Source: a virus. Taken from it: 29,493 bases of DNA. Positions 2,870-24,660 of the stretch are shown piece by piece. A model generated the notes under the pieces. That model saw only the letters and a list, made by a program, of their open reading frames with translations. It was not told where the DNA came from and ran no database searches. The position numbers were made by a program, and so were the translations under genes. The stretch is from positions 1-29,493 of IMG/VR virus record IMGVR_UViG_3300044516_000825. The stretch is one strand, 5' to 3'. How positions within the stretch are numbered: position 1 is the stretch's first letter; each line of letters begins with the position of its first letter.

Positions 2870-5319
2870 TGGCGAACAAGTCGACCCGCCTCCCCGGCAC
2901 CGAGTTCGAAAGCACTGGCAACCGCGCCCGATCGGTAGCGTCGGGTAGCCCCGGCTCACCGGGCCTGAACCGCTCGATCGCCACGGACATTGGCGCGGGC
3001 GCGCTTGTGGCCATGGAGGCGTTGCAGAAGGTCAACGCCGAGCGCGATGCCGTGACGTCGGTGAAGGCTGAGAGCGCGTATGTTCTTGAGCGCGAAAAGA
3101 AAATGGCCGAACTCGACCCGATGGCCACGGACTATACCGAACGGGTCAAGCAGATTTGGGGTGACGGCAAGGACGCCATCGCAGCCGCAGGTCTTACGAC
3201 GCCTGCGGCGCAGGCCGACCTTGAGCGCCGCCTTGCCCGTCATGGGGCCAGCGCCGAGATCATTGGCATCAAGCTGCGCAAAGACGCGGTAAGCCGGGAG
3301 GGTCTGCTCACCGCCAAGGACAGCATGGACGCAGTCGGGGCCAAGATCAGGAATGATCCGGCCAACGCCAACGCCTACCTGTCCGAGTTCCAGGGCGGTA
3401 TGGAGCGCCTGAAGGGGGTCATGGACCCCAACCAGATGCGCGAGTTCGCCCGCACTTCTGCCGACAAGCTCGCGGCGGACCAGGTTATCGGCTACGCGGA
3501 GAAGGGCAACTTCAGCGCTGCGCGCAACGCACTTCAGTCTCAGGCCTCCCATCTTGGCACCGAGAAAGCGATCGCCCTGTCAAAGTATATTGACGACAGG
3601 CAAACCAAGGTACGTATCGACGGCGATCGTGCGCAGGCAGCTTCGGCCAACCTGCTCACCGCCCGCATGTACGACTGGGCGCATGGCCTTGGCCCGCCTG
3701 TCAGTCGTGAGGAAATCGACGCCAAGTTCAAGGGGACGCAGCAGTATGCGTCCATGGTCAGCGTATTTGGTTCGGCCACCGAGAAGCTGAAGAACCAGAA
3801 CGACCGCGAGTTCGACAAGATAATGGCCGATCATGCCGTAGATATTTCGGCACGTATCAGCGACGCGCAGGCGGGCAAGGGGCCGATGCCCTCGCGCGAG
3901 GAGATCGACGCGCTCAAGACGTGGCGGCAGTACGACGACCTGGTGAAGCAACACAACGCCACTGATATCGCCCAGCGCAGGATACGGGTAAAGACGGAAG
4001 AAGCGGTGGAGGCGGTGCGTACCGGAACCGCCAAGGACCAGGAGCAGGTTGACCTTGGCATCAAGGCCCTCATTGGCGACGTGCCGATCGGCAAGATCGC
4101 GATAGACGGCACCCCTGAACAGAGAGCCGTAGCCATTCAGGCCATGGCAAAGATCGGGGCAACCACCGGGATGCTCTACGGCGACTTCAAGAACTTGCTG
4201 GAGAACAGCGACAGCACGACCGACAAGTCCCGCGCCGGGCAAGTGGCCTTCGCCGCCGAGGCTGCGGACGATCTGGAGAACATGGCCCCGCGTGCGCTTG
4301 ACAACGCCAAGCTAAACCCCACGGGCACGCTGGCCATCGTGCGCAGCGAAGCCAAGCGCATGATCGAGCAAGGTATGCCGAAGTCTGAGGCGTACAAGCA
4401 GGCGGCTTCGACATACATGAGCAAGGGGCCGCTCACCCTCGCGGAGGAGAACGACCGCAAGGACGCGCTCAGGAAGAGCCTTGCAAAGATAGACCTTGGC
4501 AGTAAGGTTGAAGCGGCCATGACGTCCTGGGGTGAGCGCAACGTACCGTTCGTGAAGCTCCCCGGCCAGGACGTCGCCTTGCAGGGTGAGTGGAAGCGCG
4601 CGTATGAAACTGCCTTCATGCGCACCGGCAGCGCGGAGCAGGCCGAGGCGCTCGCCAAAACAACCTTGAACCAAATCTATGGCACGACCATGGTGGGCGC
4701 GGTTGGCAAGCCCCCAGACACCAATGTGGACGTGCTCCTCGCCCTCGTGAACCCCGGCATGGACCCCGCGGGCCGTCGCTGGCAGATCGCCCGTCGCCCT
4801 ATCGAGCGCTACTCCCCACCCAGTATGCGCGCCCTGCCGCAGAAAGATCAGGCGCGCATTTACCAGAACCAGATCGAGCCGGGCCTCAAGACCGCGGGTG
4901 TCAACTTGGTCAAGGACCCGAAGTTCCCCCACTTGTCATCCTACCGTTTGGTGGCCGACAACCAGACCGAGCAGGACTTGCGCGAACCGCGTAGGGTAAT
5001 CGACCCTCAAACGAAGCAAGTTAGGCTGGAGAAGGGTTTGCCGACCTATAAGGTGCAGGTTCTCCGCGTGGGCGGGGACGGCGAGTATTACGACGTTCCG
5101 GGCTTCCCGCGATATCGCCCGCCCACTGAGGCCGAAGTGCTACAGGACCCGACGTACATCGAGATCAATAACGCTCGCCTCATGAACGACATGAAGGCTC
5201 GTCAACAGAACCTCACCAACCAAACTGAAATCCGCACTCGCACGGAGCGCACTGGCCAGACCGCGCCGCGCCCGAGCCAGATGCCACAGCCGCTAATCGA
5301 GCCGAGAGGGAAGAAGTAA
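2869..5319 (+). CDS. T7 gp15-like internal virion protein C
   Basis: An 816-aa, mostly helical and highly charged protein lying between the gp14-like and gp16-like genes, where T7 encodes gp15 (747 aa). The family forms the periplasmic part of the ejection conduit together with gp16. I see no signal peptide, membrane segment or catalytic motif. The middle (about residues 250-500) is rich in heptad-like Ala/Leu/Lys/Glu patterns consistent with the long helical bundles of gp15. The C-terminus is a hydrophilic, Gln/Arg/Pro-rich tail. The start codon overlaps the previous stop by one base, and the stop is immediately followed by the next gene's TTG. Sequence similarity to T7 itself is not visible by eye, so the assignment is by position, size and character. 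Confidence 0.6.
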   Translation: MANKSTRLPGTEFESTGNRARSVASGSPGSPGLNRSIATDIGAGALVAMEALQKVNAERDAVTSVKAESAYVLEREKKMAELDPMATDYTERVKQIWGDGKDAIAAAGLTTPAAQADLERRLARHGASAEIIGIKLRKDAVSREGLLTAKDSMDAVGAKIRNDPANANAYLSEFQGGMERLKGVMDPNQMREFARTSADKLAADQVIGYAEKGNFSAARNALQSQASHLGTEKAIALSKYIDDRQTKVRIDGDRAQAASANLLTARMYDWAHGLGPPVSREEIDAKFKGTQQYASMVSVFGSATEKLKNQNDREFDKIMADHAVDISARISDAQAGKGPMPSREEIDALKTWRQYDDLVKQHNATDIAQRRIRVKTEEAVEAVRTGTAKDQEQVDLGIKALIGDVPIGKIAIDGTPEQRAVAIQAMAKIGATTGMLYGDFKNLLENSDSTTDKSRAGQVAFAAEAADDLENMAPRALDNAKLNPTGTLAIVRSEAKRMIEQGMPKSEAYKQAASTYMSKGPLTLAEENDRKDALRKSLAKIDLGSKVEAAMTSWGERNVPFVKLPGQDVALQGEWKRAYETAFMRTGSAEQAEALAKTTLNQIYGTTMVGAVGKPPDTNVDVLLALVNPGMDPAGRRWQIARRPIERYSPPSMRALPQKDQARIYQNQIEPGLKTAGVNLVKDPKFPHLSSYRLVADNQTEQDLREPRRVIDPQTKQVRLEKGLPTYKVQVLRVGGDGEYYDVPGFPRYRPPTEAEVLQDPTYIEINNARLMNDMKARQQNLTNQTEIRTRTERTGQTAPRPSQMPQPLIEPRGKK

Positions 5320-8300
5320 TTGCCGTTCGAAACGGAAGTCCAGCCGCTAGCACCGGAAGTCGTCGCGCGCTTCAACAAGCCGGAAGGGCAGGACGCTTCT
5401 CTCATGTCCCGCCTGGCGCAGCAGATCCGTGCCGCGTTCACATTGGAGAATTCGGTCGGCTCCGCGCTGAACGTTACCGGCCTGCCCGACCAGAACCTCG
5501 CGCAGACGGACCCCTTGGCCGCGGCGCTGTTCGACGCCGAGGAGTTCCTGTCCCCCGAGGAGAAGGCGTACAGCGACCGCTTCACCGGGGCCAACAGCTA
5601 CCGCGATATCGAGGCCATCCGCTTCAGGATCGCAGATGAGAAGGCGGCGCACGAGGCCATGGCCAGCGGTCCCCTGCCCGAGTGGCTGATCGGTACGGTC
5701 GCCGCGGTGGTCGATCCCACCACGGTCCTCCCCATGGCCGGTCCCCTCGTCAAGGGCGGCAGGGCGGCGGTGGCGCTGGGCTCGTTCGGGCGCGTGGGCG
5801 TATCCGCTGCGGCGGGCGCGGGCGTGCAGGAGGCCGTCCTGCAGGGCACACAGGTCAGCCGTACCGCCGAGGAGAGCGCGGCCAGTGTGCTGGGTGCCCT
5901 CATCGTGGGCGGCGCTATCGGCTCCGTGGCAGGCACGCTGGGGCGGCGCAAGCTTGCGCAGTTTACCAAGACCATGCAGGACGAGGTCCGCAAGAAGGTT
6001 GAGAGCGACATTACGCAGGTACTCCGTGCGTCCAGCCTGGGCGACCTGCCTCCCCCGAAGGCGGGCCTGTTCGACACCACCGCGGTAGGACGCTACCTCG
6101 ACGCCAACAACGCGCCGAACTTCACCCTGCCGCGTAACAACGTGGTCAAGGCAGCGGACAACGATATCCTGAACTACGTTGCCGAGACGCAGCCCAAACT
6201 GCTCGACGACGTCACTCGCCTGGCTACGGAAATCCAGAAGGCCGACGAGCGTATCTCCCGCCTTGAGGCCGACCCCACCACGCCCGTCACGCGTATGGTC
6301 ATGCCACGCGACCAGCTTACCATCGACCTGATGGACGCGCTGGCCAAGGAGGGCACGCCTGCAGCCAAGAAGCAACTGGCCGATATCCAGGAAAGCCTCC
6401 AGCCTGCCGTCACCCTCAACCGCCTTAAGCGCGAGAACGAAGACCTGATCGCGGAGTGGGAGGCAGCGGAAACCCGACTGGCCAAAACGATCGAGAAGAC
6501 CAAGAAGGCGATGGCCGAGATCGAGGCCAACCTCACGCCGAAGGACCGCGCCGAGGCCAGTCTGGAGATCGCCCGTCTGCAAGCCGCGTTCGAAAAGGAA
6601 CTGGCCGAGGGGCGCGACCCGCTGAAGCTGTACCCGCAGGGCGATCCTATGGACTGGCTGCGCGGCTTCGCGCGGTTCCCCGCCGAGCCCAAGGCGAAGG
6701 TCGAAGCGCCCAAGGTTGAGCCCCCGAAGGCGGGTGAACCTCCTGCGCCCAAGGACGCCTCGTCTGCGGCGGTTCCTCCAGAGCTTAAAGCCGAGCGGGG
6801 GTACGACTTCACCTCCCGTCTGCGCAGTTCGTTCATGGTCGCGGAGATCACCGCCTATCTGGCCAAGATTGGCCTCGCCATGCCGTCGCTCTACATGTCG
6901 ACGTCCATATTCGAAACCTCGCGCCGCGTCATCAACCGCTTCGCCTATACCGGCCTACTCCTCGACGACCACTTCAAGGGCGCTCGCCACGGCGACGACT
7001 TCGAAACCGAGGTCAAGATACTGGCCGAACCCATGATGGCGCAGATGGTTCACAACGTCAATACGGCGTGGGCGGACTATAAGCAGGCGGTCAAGGCGGG
7101 GGAAGCCCCCGAGCTAACGCGCGGGCAGTTCTACGACGCGATCGGCACGGCCATGACCGAGGGCGACATCGGCCCGCACAAGATCATTACGGACGCCGCC
7201 AAGGCTCAACGTCTGATCGACAAGCACTTCGCGGACCTGGCTGCCGAGTGGGCGGTCGGTGTGTTCAAGAACTCCGAAGCCGTGGCCAAGAAGATGGCGG
7301 GCAAGAGCCATCTTCAGCGCGTCTACCACCACGAGCGCATCAAAGCCAACCCTGTGGGGTGGAGGGAGTTGGTCAAGGACTACTTCCGTCGTCAGTCGGA
7401 CAAGCCGATCGCGGAAGATTTCCTGGATGAAATGGCCGACAGCGTCACCAGCAAAATCCTGGGCCAGCCTGACGGTCGCCTGCCCGGTAAGATAACCGTG
7501 CCGGAGGGTCGCGGGTCCGCCAAGGAGCGCACCTTCGATATTCCCGACAACTGGCGCACGGCGGACGGGCGCTACGGCATGAGCGACTTCGTCGACCGCA
7601 ACGTGGTCAACGTCATGGCGCGCTACATCCGCACCATGGCCGCCGACGTCGCCTACCAGAAGATCATGGGCGGGGACGAAGGCATCGCAGTCATCCTGGA
7701 GCAGTTGAAGCGTGAGCGGGATGACATGTTGACCGCGCTTGCGGAGAAATTCGACGCCAAGATGAGCGAAGGCCAGGCTCCCAAGCCCCGCGAGATCGCC
7801 GCGCTGAAAAAGAAGAACCTCCAGATCGAGGCCATGTACGAGCGTGATCGCAGCACGATCGAGGCGCTGGTGCATCGCATCCGCGGCACCGAGCCTGGCG
7901 GCACGATGGACCCGCGCTACGCGGGCGCTCGCACCGCGGCCAAGGTCATCAAGAACTCCAACATTCCCCTGCTCATGGGTTCGTCCCTGATCTCCCAGCT
8001 TCCAGACCTGGGGCGTTTGGTTATGTCCGAGGGCATCATGCGGACGTTCGGCGGGCTGGCTGGGCACTTCACAGACGGCTTCAAGTCCCTGAAAATGGCC
8101 AAGGCTGAAGGGCAGCGCGCAGGTACGATCAACGACATGCTCATGGGCGGGCGCGCGGGAACCCTGGCGGATATCGGGGACCAATACACCAACCAGTCGA
8201 AGGCCGAAATGATCTCGGGCCTGGTCGCCCACAAGTCGCTGGTGTTGTTCGGCGTGTCGCCGTGGAATACCTTTATCAAGAGCCATGCTTCCTACATGGG

Positions 8301-21760: not shown

Positions 21761-22258
21761 CTAGCGAAACAGGAAATCGAGGATGGCCAGCGTCTCGGCG
21801 CGATGCGGATGCCCCGGGTCGCCCCAGTGTGTGCGGGCCTCCTGCTCATTGAACACACGACAGCCCGCCCACACCGTAGGAACACCATCCAAGGTGCCTA
21901 CAGTAAACACATGTCCGTCCGAACGTACCGCATGGCGTCTGGCCCCCTCGCCAATAATGGCCCCGTCGCCAATAATGGCCTCGTCGCCAATAATGGCCCC
22001 CTCGCCAATCCTGGCCCACTCGCCAATCCTGGCCCACTCGCCAATCCTGGCCCACTCGCCAATCCTGGCCCACTCGCCAATCCTGGCCTCCTCGCCAATC
22101 CTGGCCCCCTCGCCAATCCTGGCCCCCTCGCCAATAATGGCCCACTCGCCAATAATGGCCCACTCGCCAATCCTGGCCTCGTCGCCAATCGTGGCGCGCT
22201 CGCCAACATAGATCGTGACGACAGAGCCGTCCGGGTTCGTGTGCTTACGTTGTTCCAT
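21761..22258 (-). CDS. Hexapeptide-repeat (left-handed beta-helix) protein
   Basis: 165 aa. After an N-terminal MEQRKHTNPDGSVVTIY come 15 perfect-length hexapeptides of the form (I/V)-G-(E/D)-x-A-x, residues ~18-107, with no insertions, predicted to stack as five coils of a left-handed parallel beta-helix. The C-terminal ~58 residues form a separate domain (DGHVFTVGTLDGVPTVWAGC, FNEQEARTHWGD, HRAETLAILDFLF) that I recall on other phage proteins. There are no acyltransferase catalytic insertions, so a structural or binding role is likelier than an enzyme. The ATG at 22258 follows GGAGG by five bases. First gene of the leftward operon, with its own promoter. Confidence 0.8.
   Translation of the reverse strand: MEQRKHTNPDGSVVTIYVGERATIGDEARIGEWAIIGEWAIIGEGARIGEGARIGEEARIGEWARIGEWARIGEWARIGEWARIGEGAIIGDEAIIGDGAIIGEGARRHAVRSDGHVFTVGTLDGVPTVWAGCRVFNEQEARTHWGDPGHPHRAETLAILDFLFR
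21938..22207 (-). repeat. 15 tandem 18-bp units encoding the hexapeptides
   Basis: Units are exactly 18 bp and in phase with codons. Four consecutive copies (22010-22081) are identical at DNA level (plus strand CCTGGCCCACTCGCCAAT). The others differ mainly at the third and sixth residues (W/G/E, R/I). Perfect DNA identity beyond what the protein needs implies recent duplication or gene conversion and possible copy-number change. Confidence 0.9.
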
Positions 22259-22285
22259 GATCCCTCCTTCAAATTCGACGGAAAT

Positions 22286-22315
22286 ATTGTACCGTGATAT
22301 AGACCACTGGCGCAA
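22286..22315 (-). promoter_or_regulatory. Sigma70-type promoter heading the leftward operon
   Basis: On the minus strand, TTGCGC (22315-22310, four of six) and TACAAT (22291-22286, five of six) lie 18 bp apart in the 77-bp gap between divergent genes. The expected start near 22279 gives a leader of about 20 nt containing GGAGG. No equally good box pair was seen for the rightward direction in this gap. Confidence 0.5.
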
Positions 22316-22701: not shown

Positions 22702-24660
22702 ATGCTCGATCGTGCATTGGCCTGGGCCGCGGCAGGGTGGCCCGTGTTCCCCTGTAGTTCAACCGGCCACCCGGCCATCAAGGAGTGGCAGAAGAAGGCT
22801 ACCACGGACGAGGCCATCATTCGTGCGTGGGATTGGACGGACGCTCGCGTAGCTGCGGTGCCGGGTCTGGCGGGCTGCTTCGTGATCGACGTGGACGTGA
22901 AAAACGGCAAGGACGGCGAAACTTCACTGGCAAAACTGGAGGCAGAACATGACTTCGAAGCGTGGGAATACCCGCAGCAATCTACCCCCACGGGAGGGCG
23001 TCATATCTTTCTATTCGGGCAAGCCCCCTCATCCGTTCAGCGTTTGCTCGGTGAAGGTCTTGATACCAGAGGAGGGACTGGAGAGGGTGGGCTTGGCTTC
23101 GTCTACGCTTACGGGGATGAACCGCCCTGCGCTACAACTGATTGTCTGGTCGCGCCCCCCGGCCTCCTCCAAGCCCTTGCCCAAGGCAAAAGGGAAGTCA
23201 GTGAAGACCGAGAAACGCCGCGCGTCGAGCTGGACCAGCCCGCCAACGTCGAGAGGGCGCTGTCCTTCGTGCGCAACCTGCCGTCCCCGGACGAGGGGCA
23301 GCGCAACATAAACGTTTTCAAGACGGCCTGCACTTTGAAAGACTTGGGGCTTTCCCTTTCAAAGATATTTGAGGTGCTGGAGGATCACCCCAGTGTGACG
23401 GGAAACCCGCCCCTGTGTGAGGAAAACGAGGAGGAGTTCAATGCTACCGTTCGGTCGGCGTACAAGAACGGCCAAAGGCAACCCGGCATCGACGCAATCG
23501 ACGAAGGCACCCGCAACCGCGCCGCTGAAGGTTTCGACCTTGGAGAAGCGCGGGAGCAAGCGCCGCATGGCCGAGGTAAACGAAAGCTTACCTACTGGTC
23601 GGAAAGGCGCAGCCGCCCGAAGCCCCCGTGGCTGGTGAGGGGGGTATTCGCGAAGAACAGCCTGGCGGGCGTGTACGGCCCCGGTGGGGCATACAAGTCG
23701 TTCGTGGCGCTGGACCTCGCCTGCACACTGGCCAGCGGCAAGAAGACGTGGTTGGAGCGCGACGTGCGGGCGGAAGGCCCGGTGGTGTATATCAGCGGAG
23801 AAGGTACGATCGACCCGCGCGTGAGGGCCTGGGAGAAGCACCACAATACAATGGTGTCCGATAACCTGGCGGTATGGGACGGTATCGACCTGGCCGACGC
23901 CGCCCAGCTTGAGAGCCTGCTGGGGGGTGTAGCCGCCGCAAAGGAGGAGAAATGGGGCGGCAAAGGCCCGGTGCTGGTCATCGTTGACACCTTGGCGCGG
24001 GCGACCCCCGGCCAGGAGGAGAACGCAACGAAGGACATGGGCGAAATCGCAGATACATGTAACTCGCTGCGCCTGCATTTTCAGTGCTGTGTCATGCTGG
24101 TGCACCACACCCCGAAGGGCAGCCGGGATTGGAGGGGCGCGATCGCCATGTGGAACGCCCTCGACACTGGCCTTCTGGTCGAGAAGGTGCGCCCACTGTC
24201 CTGCCGCCTGAAACTGGTGCGCCAGAAGGATGGCATGGAGGGCATGGTGTGGCGGGGGCTCATGAAGCAGGTCCCCACGGGGTTCCCAGTCGAGGAGGGA
24301 GACGAGCCTGAGACGAGCCTGGTGCTGGAGGGCGTGGCCGAGGACGCAGCCGAGCCGGAAACGATGACCGCGCCCAAGGACGAGGCGATACGCAAGCGTC
24401 AGATCACCGAGACGATCGCGGTAGAAATGAACCGCGGCCAGATTGCGGAGAAGTATCTGGTGGCGAGTGGGCCGGAAGTGCTGGTGCCGGAGTTGGCAAA
24501 GTGGATGGAGACGGAGGGCGTGCGGGGCGCGGCGGCGTGGCTGCGTTCCGTGTTCAATCGGGGCGCGCTTAACACCGCGCACCCTCTGGCCCCGCGTGCG
24601 ATCGGGACCAAGGCGGTTACAGGCTTCCGGGGAGGTGTTATTCCTCCGGAGGGGGAGTGA
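22702..24660 (+). CDS. Primase-polymerase / RecA-like replicative helicase fusion
   Basis: 652 aa. The N-terminal ~180 residues are a primase-polymerase domain: AAAGWPVFPC, the metal site VIDVDVKNG (Asp63/Asp65), STPTGGRH (94-101) and a Gly-rich YAYGDEPP/VAPPGL end. A middle helical part (180-290) links to a RecA-like ATPase: Walker A GPGGAYKS (326-333), VVYISGEG, Walker B VLVIVDT (424-430), and a motif-3-like MLVHHTPKGSRDWRGA, as in RepA/AAA_25 helicases. It would prime and unwind DNA for the family A polymerase, replacing T7 gp4. AAGGAAACC precedes the ATG. The last 23 bp overlap a convergent gene. Confidence 0.88.
   Translation: MLDRALAWAAAGWPVFPCSSTGHPAIKEWQKKATTDEAIIRAWDWTDARVAAVPGLAGCFVIDVDVKNGKDGETSLAKLEAEHDFEAWEYPQQSTPTGGRHIFLFGQAPSSVQRLLGEGLDTRGGTGEGGLGFVYAYGDEPPCATTDCLVAPPGLLQALAQGKREVSEDRETPRVELDQPANVERALSFVRNLPSPDEGQRNINVFKTACTLKDLGLSLSKIFEVLEDHPSVTGNPPLCEENEEEFNATVRSAYKNGQRQPGIDAIDEGTRNRAAEGFDLGEAREQAPHGRGKRKLTYWSERRSRPKPPWLVRGVFAKNSLAGVYGPGGAYKSFVALDLACTLASGKKTWLERDVRAEGPVVYISGEGTIDPRVRAWEKHHNTMVSDNLAVWDGIDLADAAQLESLLGGVAAAKEEKWGGKGPVLVIVDTLARATPGQEENATKDMGEIADTCNSLRLHFQCCVMLVHHTPKGSRDWRGAIAMWNALDTGLLVEKVRPLSCRLKLVRQKDGMEGMVWRGLMKQVPTGFPVEEGDEPETSLVLEGVAEDAAEPETMTAPKDEAIRKRQITETIAVEMNRGQIAEKYLVASGPEVLVPELAKWMETEGVRGAAAWLRSVFNRGALNTAHPLAPRAIGTKAVTGFRGGVIPPEGE

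Follow-up and report, generated by a model that had tools for sequence, protein, structure and literature searches.

A conserved phage C-terminal domain borne on repeat-encoded solenoid rods with changing unit number and variable exposed residues

The window studied here is the whole 29,493-nucleotide stretch of the virus record IMGVR_UViG_3300044516_000825. It carries a complete gene for a small repeat protein, which lies next to genes of DNA replication. The gene, its parts and its neighbours are listed below in window coordinates; L012 is a related viral contig (IMGVR_UViG_3300001605_000091).

19954-21573, minus strand: SNF2-type helicase gene, downstream (Pfam PF00176, E=1.7e-28)
21761-22258, minus strand: complete gene of 165 amino acids, with its ATG at 22258 and its stop at 21761-21763
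21764-21937, minus strand: conserved C-terminal domain (C-domain), residues 108-165 (58 residues), predicted beta-beta-beta-beta-alpha-alpha
21938-22207, minus strand: array of 15 hexapeptides (18-bp units), consensus I-G-E-W/G-A-R/I, residues 18-107 (Tandem Repeats Finder, Pfam PF00132)
22010-22081, minus strand: units 8-11 of the array, four DNA-identical copies of ATTGGCGAGTGGGCCAGG (IGEWAR)
22208-22258, minus strand: short N-terminal segment, residues 1-17 (MEQRKHTNPDGSVVTIY), largely alike in L012
22263-22269, minus strand: Shine-Dalgarno sequence AAGGAGG, kept in L012 too
22286-22315, minus strand: weak promoter-like pair TTGCGC-18-TACAAT, below the scan threshold and kept in L012
22336-22698, plus strand: divergent gene upstream, weakly assigned to the HTH class (PF12728, E=4.4e-5, 24.1 bits, below the cut-off of 27)
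22702-24660, plus strand: primase-polymerase/AAA protein (PF09250 and PF13481)

The array has the build that had been read from the DNA: exactly 15 in-register hexapeptides, free of insertions, with four adjacent units identical at the nucleotide level. Tandem Repeats Finder gives it a period of 18, 14.9 copies, 90% matches and a score of 361, far above chance, and the Pfam Hexapep model (PF00132) matches it with E=7.4e-21 and 73.4 bits, above the gathering cut-off of 27. Positions 1, 2 and 5 of the unit are almost fixed down to the codon (ATT in 14/15 units, GGC in 15/15 and GCC in 15/15), the fifteenth residue at position 1 being a valine. Variation had been placed mainly at two positions per hexapeptide, an undercount, since three codons vary: position 3 (GAG 12, GAC 3), position 4 (TGG 6, GGG 5, GAG 3, CGC 1) and position 6 (AGG 8, ATT 5, ACG 1, AGA 1). 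The window and a second contig (L002, from IMG 3300042399) agree over 12.5 kb in all but 3 bases, and both encode an identical protein. The 18-bp array is stop-free in several frames on both strands (21761-22315), which explains the spurious long open reading frames opposite or overlapping the gene, such as 21803-22297 on the plus strand.

The gene does stand at the head of a leftward replication block, as had been proposed: the SNF2 helicase is followed by DUF2800, an Enc34-type ssDNA-binding protein and DNA polymerase A (Pfam). The promoter of its own that the original prediction gave it was not recovered, the sigma-70 scan returning none on the strand of the gene and the pair listed above falling short of the threshold. 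Among relatives of the protein, that of a Mannheimia phage has a recombinase and an exonuclease nearby, that of a Ruminococcus phage Gam and a Rad52-type annealing protein, that of Mycobacterium phage Boilgate a primase/polymerase/helicase, and that of phage Motura a DNA ligase. In environmental contigs the neighbours include SNF2-type helicases, exonuclease VIII, Sak4, Erf or primase, and some neighbourhoods are uninformative. From these surroundings we infer that the gene is expressed early in infection.

The extra domain at the C-terminus, which the original prediction had proposed to seek in other phages, turned out to be present in about 40 phage loci. A tblastn search with the C-domain of the window alone reached the Caulobacter phages GB2A, RW, RLK and KcrB, in which it sits behind an array of pentapeptides. 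Viral contigs were then scanned with an alignment of the domain, which gave 36 loci, and a few were added later. It is recognised by the motif R-S-D-G..F ... A-G-C-R.F ... H ... E and has no name in Pfam, PHROGs or NCBIfam, although these resources recognise the repeats. Its rods are of three repeat types: IG-hexapeptides (the window, L012 and L013), G[ND]A-hexapeptides (V-S/Y-G-N/D-A-R/W/Q) and pentapeptides. Assignment of a rod to the pentapeptide family PF00805 took at least eight pentapeptides A(D/N)LXX, a number present in relatives sharing the C-domain; the window protein itself has no Pfam match to PF00805. As a control for circularity, profiles of the C-domain were rebuilt leaving out the window and its closest relatives and run against the window gene. 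They recovered it with E=2.9e-18 (all remaining rows), E=3e-14 (pentapeptide-borne domains alone) and E=5.2e-18 (G[ND]A-borne domains alone), the next-best unrelated open reading frame scoring 0.46 or worse in each case.

The limits of the family are set by a few further comparisons. Phages of Bacillus, Mannheimia, Ruminococcus, Bacteroides, Mycobacterium and other hosts encode G[ND]A-type or more degenerate hexapeptide proteins whose distant-looking end domain aligns with the C-domain (hhalign probability 84%, E=7e-6) and is also found among its Foldseek BFVD neighbours. Contig L003 carries an IG-hexapeptide array much like that of the window (6001-6399), and profiles built without L003 missed its C-terminus; we therefore count only its array as related, and the rod may occur with another end domain. 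Among bacterial genomes, the C-domain was found in 3/296 of the order of G003 (a Sphingorhabdus MAG) and in 2/398 of its phylum, with G003 counted in both. With so few copies, a bacterial chromosomal family was rejected, and this is essentially a phage gene. In L012, around position 4075-4090, the motif reads AGRR instead of the AGCR of nearly all others, with the frame intact; either this copy can do without the near-invariant cysteine or it is changing. A strict catalytic role for that cysteine is unlikely, given the arginine at its position in L012. Two loci, L077 and L078, have two pentapeptide arrays in one protein, between which lies a repeated segment that starts with MNKHIIHLAAVAWANGGTL; it looks as though the N-terminal part had been duplicated together with the array as one block. 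We found no paper on this C-domain or on such repeat turnover in the open-licence literature, and the word "phage" is absent from a review of pentapeptide repeat proteins (PMC8145042).

This distribution bears on one reading of the gene, a left-handed beta-helix acyltransferase akin to LpxA or LpxD, to which Hexapep and LpxA/LpxD profile matches across the array might point. The enzyme models match the repeat only and all lie far below their curated cut-offs, the array (residues 18-107) contains neither a histidine nor a loop, an acceptor domain is absent, and the C-domain also sits on pentapeptide rods. An acyltransferase is thus extremely improbable, in line with the earlier remark that its features are missing.

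The original prediction held that such an array could gain or lose units, and comparison across relatives bears this out: the family has no fixed unit number, and its arrays hold from about 5 to 47 units. The window has 15 units and L012 has 12, in syntenic regions with 79-90% identity around the gene. Likewise, L037 has 34 pentapeptides and L039 has 23, with upstream flanks 92% identical. Among the Caulobacter phages, GB2A has 22 pentapeptides against 47 in RW, RLK and KcrB, and the flanks of GB2A and RW, the phage with which it was compared, show 0 differences over the 130 bases before and the 900 bases after the array. The shorter array of GB2A could be an assembly collapse. The genomes OR260089 and MK929790 of Caulobacter phages, with identical flanks, differ in length by 372 bases, close to the 375-base difference in the array of this gene.

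Units are also homogenised within each array. Core codons are characteristic of each array, namely ATT-GGC-GCC in the window, ATC-GGC-GCC in L012 and ATC-GGC-GCG in the IG array of L003. The core isoleucines of L012 are all ATC and those of the window ATT in 14/15 units, the mark that homogenisation after the two split would leave. Assemblies bear traces of the repeats as well. The only seven Ns in 40 kb of L012 sit in the array, on variable codons, and represent either unit variants left unresolved in the reads or a collapsed repeat, and in 8/36 viral loci the contig ends inside the gene, on the array side. The deposited record of EBPR siphovirus 2 (L008, JF412297) starts inside a family member, gp1, just ahead of the C-domain, with the repeats absent from the remainder; it may have been cut at the array. 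A role as target of a diversity-generating retroelement was rejected, with RVT_1 in 0/14 phage records and the positive controls detected, several of these records being possible fragments. The gene was also rejected as a defence gene, having no PADLOC match.

What the rod might bind was approached through its charge and the order of its units. The array and linker of the window protein have a net charge of -7 over 93 amino acids. This moderately negative value, together with the replication-module context and the existence of pentapeptide DNA mimics (PMC8145042), could suggest an inhibitor of a host enzyme that imitates DNA in the manner of MfpA/Qnr or Ocr, as had been put forward. A mimic of a fixed molecule should keep its charge. 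Instead, array charge across the family spans values of about -9 to +8.5 per 100 residues, and the change of sign among relatives is evidence against conserved DNA mimicry, which we rejected as a general mechanism and regard as very unlikely. The original prediction also envisaged a variable binding face built from three units per helical turn. There is no excess of unit identity at lag 3 in hexapeptide arrays or at lag 4 in pentapeptide arrays, so that no coherent binding face is coded in the order of units. That unit variety is maintained solely to avoid stacking of like charges was likewise rejected, since stacked-charge products equal those of shuffled arrays (z of -0.8 and -0.3).

The variation among units is concentrated at exposed positions. 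Between units, pN exceeds pS in 40/41 arrays, and pS is zero in many. We counted the minimal number of extra alleles per codon column, using interior units only, in 37 arrays. With core and exposed positions assigned from known repeat motifs rather than solved structures of these proteins, there were 176 exposed amino-acid, 15 synonymous and 3 core alleles. The per-site ratio of exposed amino-acid to synonymous alleles was 4.4 in IG (p=0.019), 6.9 in pentapeptide (p=7e-13) and 7.6 in G[ND]A arrays (p=3e-7), where the p-values are indicative because arrays were treated as independent and some have common ancestry. The C-domain behaves otherwise. Its pN/pS was 0.03-0.30 in 8 pairs, with pS of 0.24-0.74, and by these ratios it is under purifying selection; such pS values imply that these genes do accept synonymous changes. 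Codon bias might still constrain synonymous sites to some degree, though the C-domains of the same genes change synonymously freely. As a control we took five pentapeptide arrays encoded in chromosomes of the order to which one host genome belongs. They had a mean pS of 0.71 and a ratio of 0.69, although they are few, old and saturated.

These results weigh on the main alternative, that of a passive spacer in which the solenoid is merely a rigid rod or solubility handle for the C-domain and its length and surface drift by slippage. Three unrelated repeat types bearing one C-domain, the wide range of unit number, the unconserved charge and the random order of units are all what such a spacer might show. 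If exposed positions were neutral, the exposed to synonymous ratio per site should be close to 1; the three repeat types give 4.4 to 7.6, against 0.69 in the chromosomal arrays. We thus consider a passive spacer unlikely, while giving it real weight. Overall, the changes in unit number, the changes at exposed positions and the constraint on the C-domain indicate that the array is repeatedly remade, with its surface apparently diversified and the C-domain kept.

Structural models add some leads. The model of the C-domain, with four strands and two helices, is confident (pLDDT 87), and neither Foldseek (no match below E 0.79) nor sequence profiles found a solved structure that matches it. With VIA-align it resembles human PURA (Z 6.8, rmsd 2.4 over 63 residues), where a Z under 8 may reflect a common arrangement, and further PUR and MoSub1 entries stand lower down the list. 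A PUR-like fold, and with it nucleic-acid binding, might be considered as a weak lead from these models. For the full-length protein, AF2 produced a beta-helix, the outcome on which the original prediction had staked its reading of the array. Its fit to right-handed bactofilins is close, at 2.1-2.7 A over 90-95 residues, whereas the left-handed PglD, CcmM and VTC1 superpose on it only at 11-12 A even though Z reaches 10-12, the pattern expected of a mirror image. The model would thus be right-handed, while by its sequence profile the array belongs with left-handed helices. On perfect repeats AlphaFold 2 can return confident yet unrealistic solenoids (PMC11795689), and for this reason the protein itself may have either hand.

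The superposition raises the possibility of a bactofilin-like scaffold, in which solenoids stacked end to end would form filaments or patches that organise phage replication, with the C-domain as a cap or tether. The replication-module context would suit it, and two G[ND]A-type relatives (L016 and L043) match the Pfam Bactofilin model above its cut-off. Nevertheless, the window protein itself has no match to Bactofilin (PF04519) at E up to 10, the pentapeptide members have a different fold, and the structural likeness comes from an AF2 model of near-perfect repeats, a class of input on which such models are unreliable. Moreover, constant polymer contacts would not be expected to go with a changing surface. 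A scaffold of this kind seems to us quite improbable.

Our preferred explanation, which we hold tentatively and at somewhat less than even confidence, is a constant C-domain combined with a variable solenoid rod, the rod meeting a host or rival factor and the C-domain docking to a constant partner. The architecture, the common C-domain, the changing unit number and the excess at exposed positions can be read from the sequences; that this excess arises because selection favours change in an interaction surface, that this surface meets a host or rival factor and that the C-domain is the docking part are what we infer from them. In this scheme, a phage gene in a replication or recombination region would encode a small alpha/beta C-domain on a rigid beta-solenoid rod, whose 15- or 18-bp units may be duplicated, deleted and overwritten through unequal recombination or slippage. 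Selection would favour new exposed surfaces, and hence the rod would most likely contact something that evolves against it during early infection, for example a factor of host defence or replication, or the protein of a co-infecting phage. The rods evolve as if engaged in an arms race. Since unit order carries no helical-turn signal, a rod surface read as a whole, or a mere tolerance of variety, would also fit. The proposal of a host-interaction protein is thus plausible, backed by the family-wide excess of exposed amino-acid alleles, whereas its DNA-mimic form fails on the varying charge. A more general formulation, possible and rather more doubtful, is that in a widespread phage system one constant C-domain uses interchangeable solenoid rods of different fold classes, the rod being a recognition module renewed by recombination, without a retroelement, whose length and exposed residues are continually diversified against a host or competitor. 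It would be the phage counterpart of recognition proteins with constant and variable parts.

Phage genes that carry no label beyond pentapeptide repeat, hexapeptide transferase or polymer-forming prove to have in common a domain without a name and an unusual way of evolving. If the diversification of the surface is functional, these proteins mark a fast-moving interface between phages and hosts and point to new bacterial targets. If it is not, they are a clean case in nature in which to follow how solenoid repeats arise, become uniform and are swapped. In both cases the family gives a way into common phage proteins whose function is unknown, and closely related phages such as RW (47 units) and GB2A (22) form natural pairs for direct comparison.

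Several known systems resemble the window protein in part. It has the hexapeptide periodicity and core residues of the left-handed beta-helix enzymes LpxA, LpxD and GlmU (PF00132), and differs from them in lacking the catalytic histidine and loop, in its unusually homogeneous DNA repeats and in its C-terminal domain. With the DNA mimics MfpA and Qnr it has in common a repeat solenoid, a small size and a rod with a C-terminal attachment; unlike them, its family has an unconserved charge, a fast-changing unit number and a C-domain of no evident relation to theirs. The phage polymer-forming or YdcK-type G[ND]A proteins (PF18836; phrog_5070, phrog_7964 and phrog_20532, all of unknown function) have the C-domain in their environmental examples, but another hexapeptide sequence, an additional N-terminal domain and bactofilin-like profile matches. 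Finally, the proteins of the Caulobacter phages GB2A, RW, RLK and KcrB, annotated as pentapeptide repeat family proteins, have a C-domain of the window type, near-identical DNA repeats and a changing unit number, on a rod made of pentapeptides (PF00805) where that of the window is made of hexapeptides.
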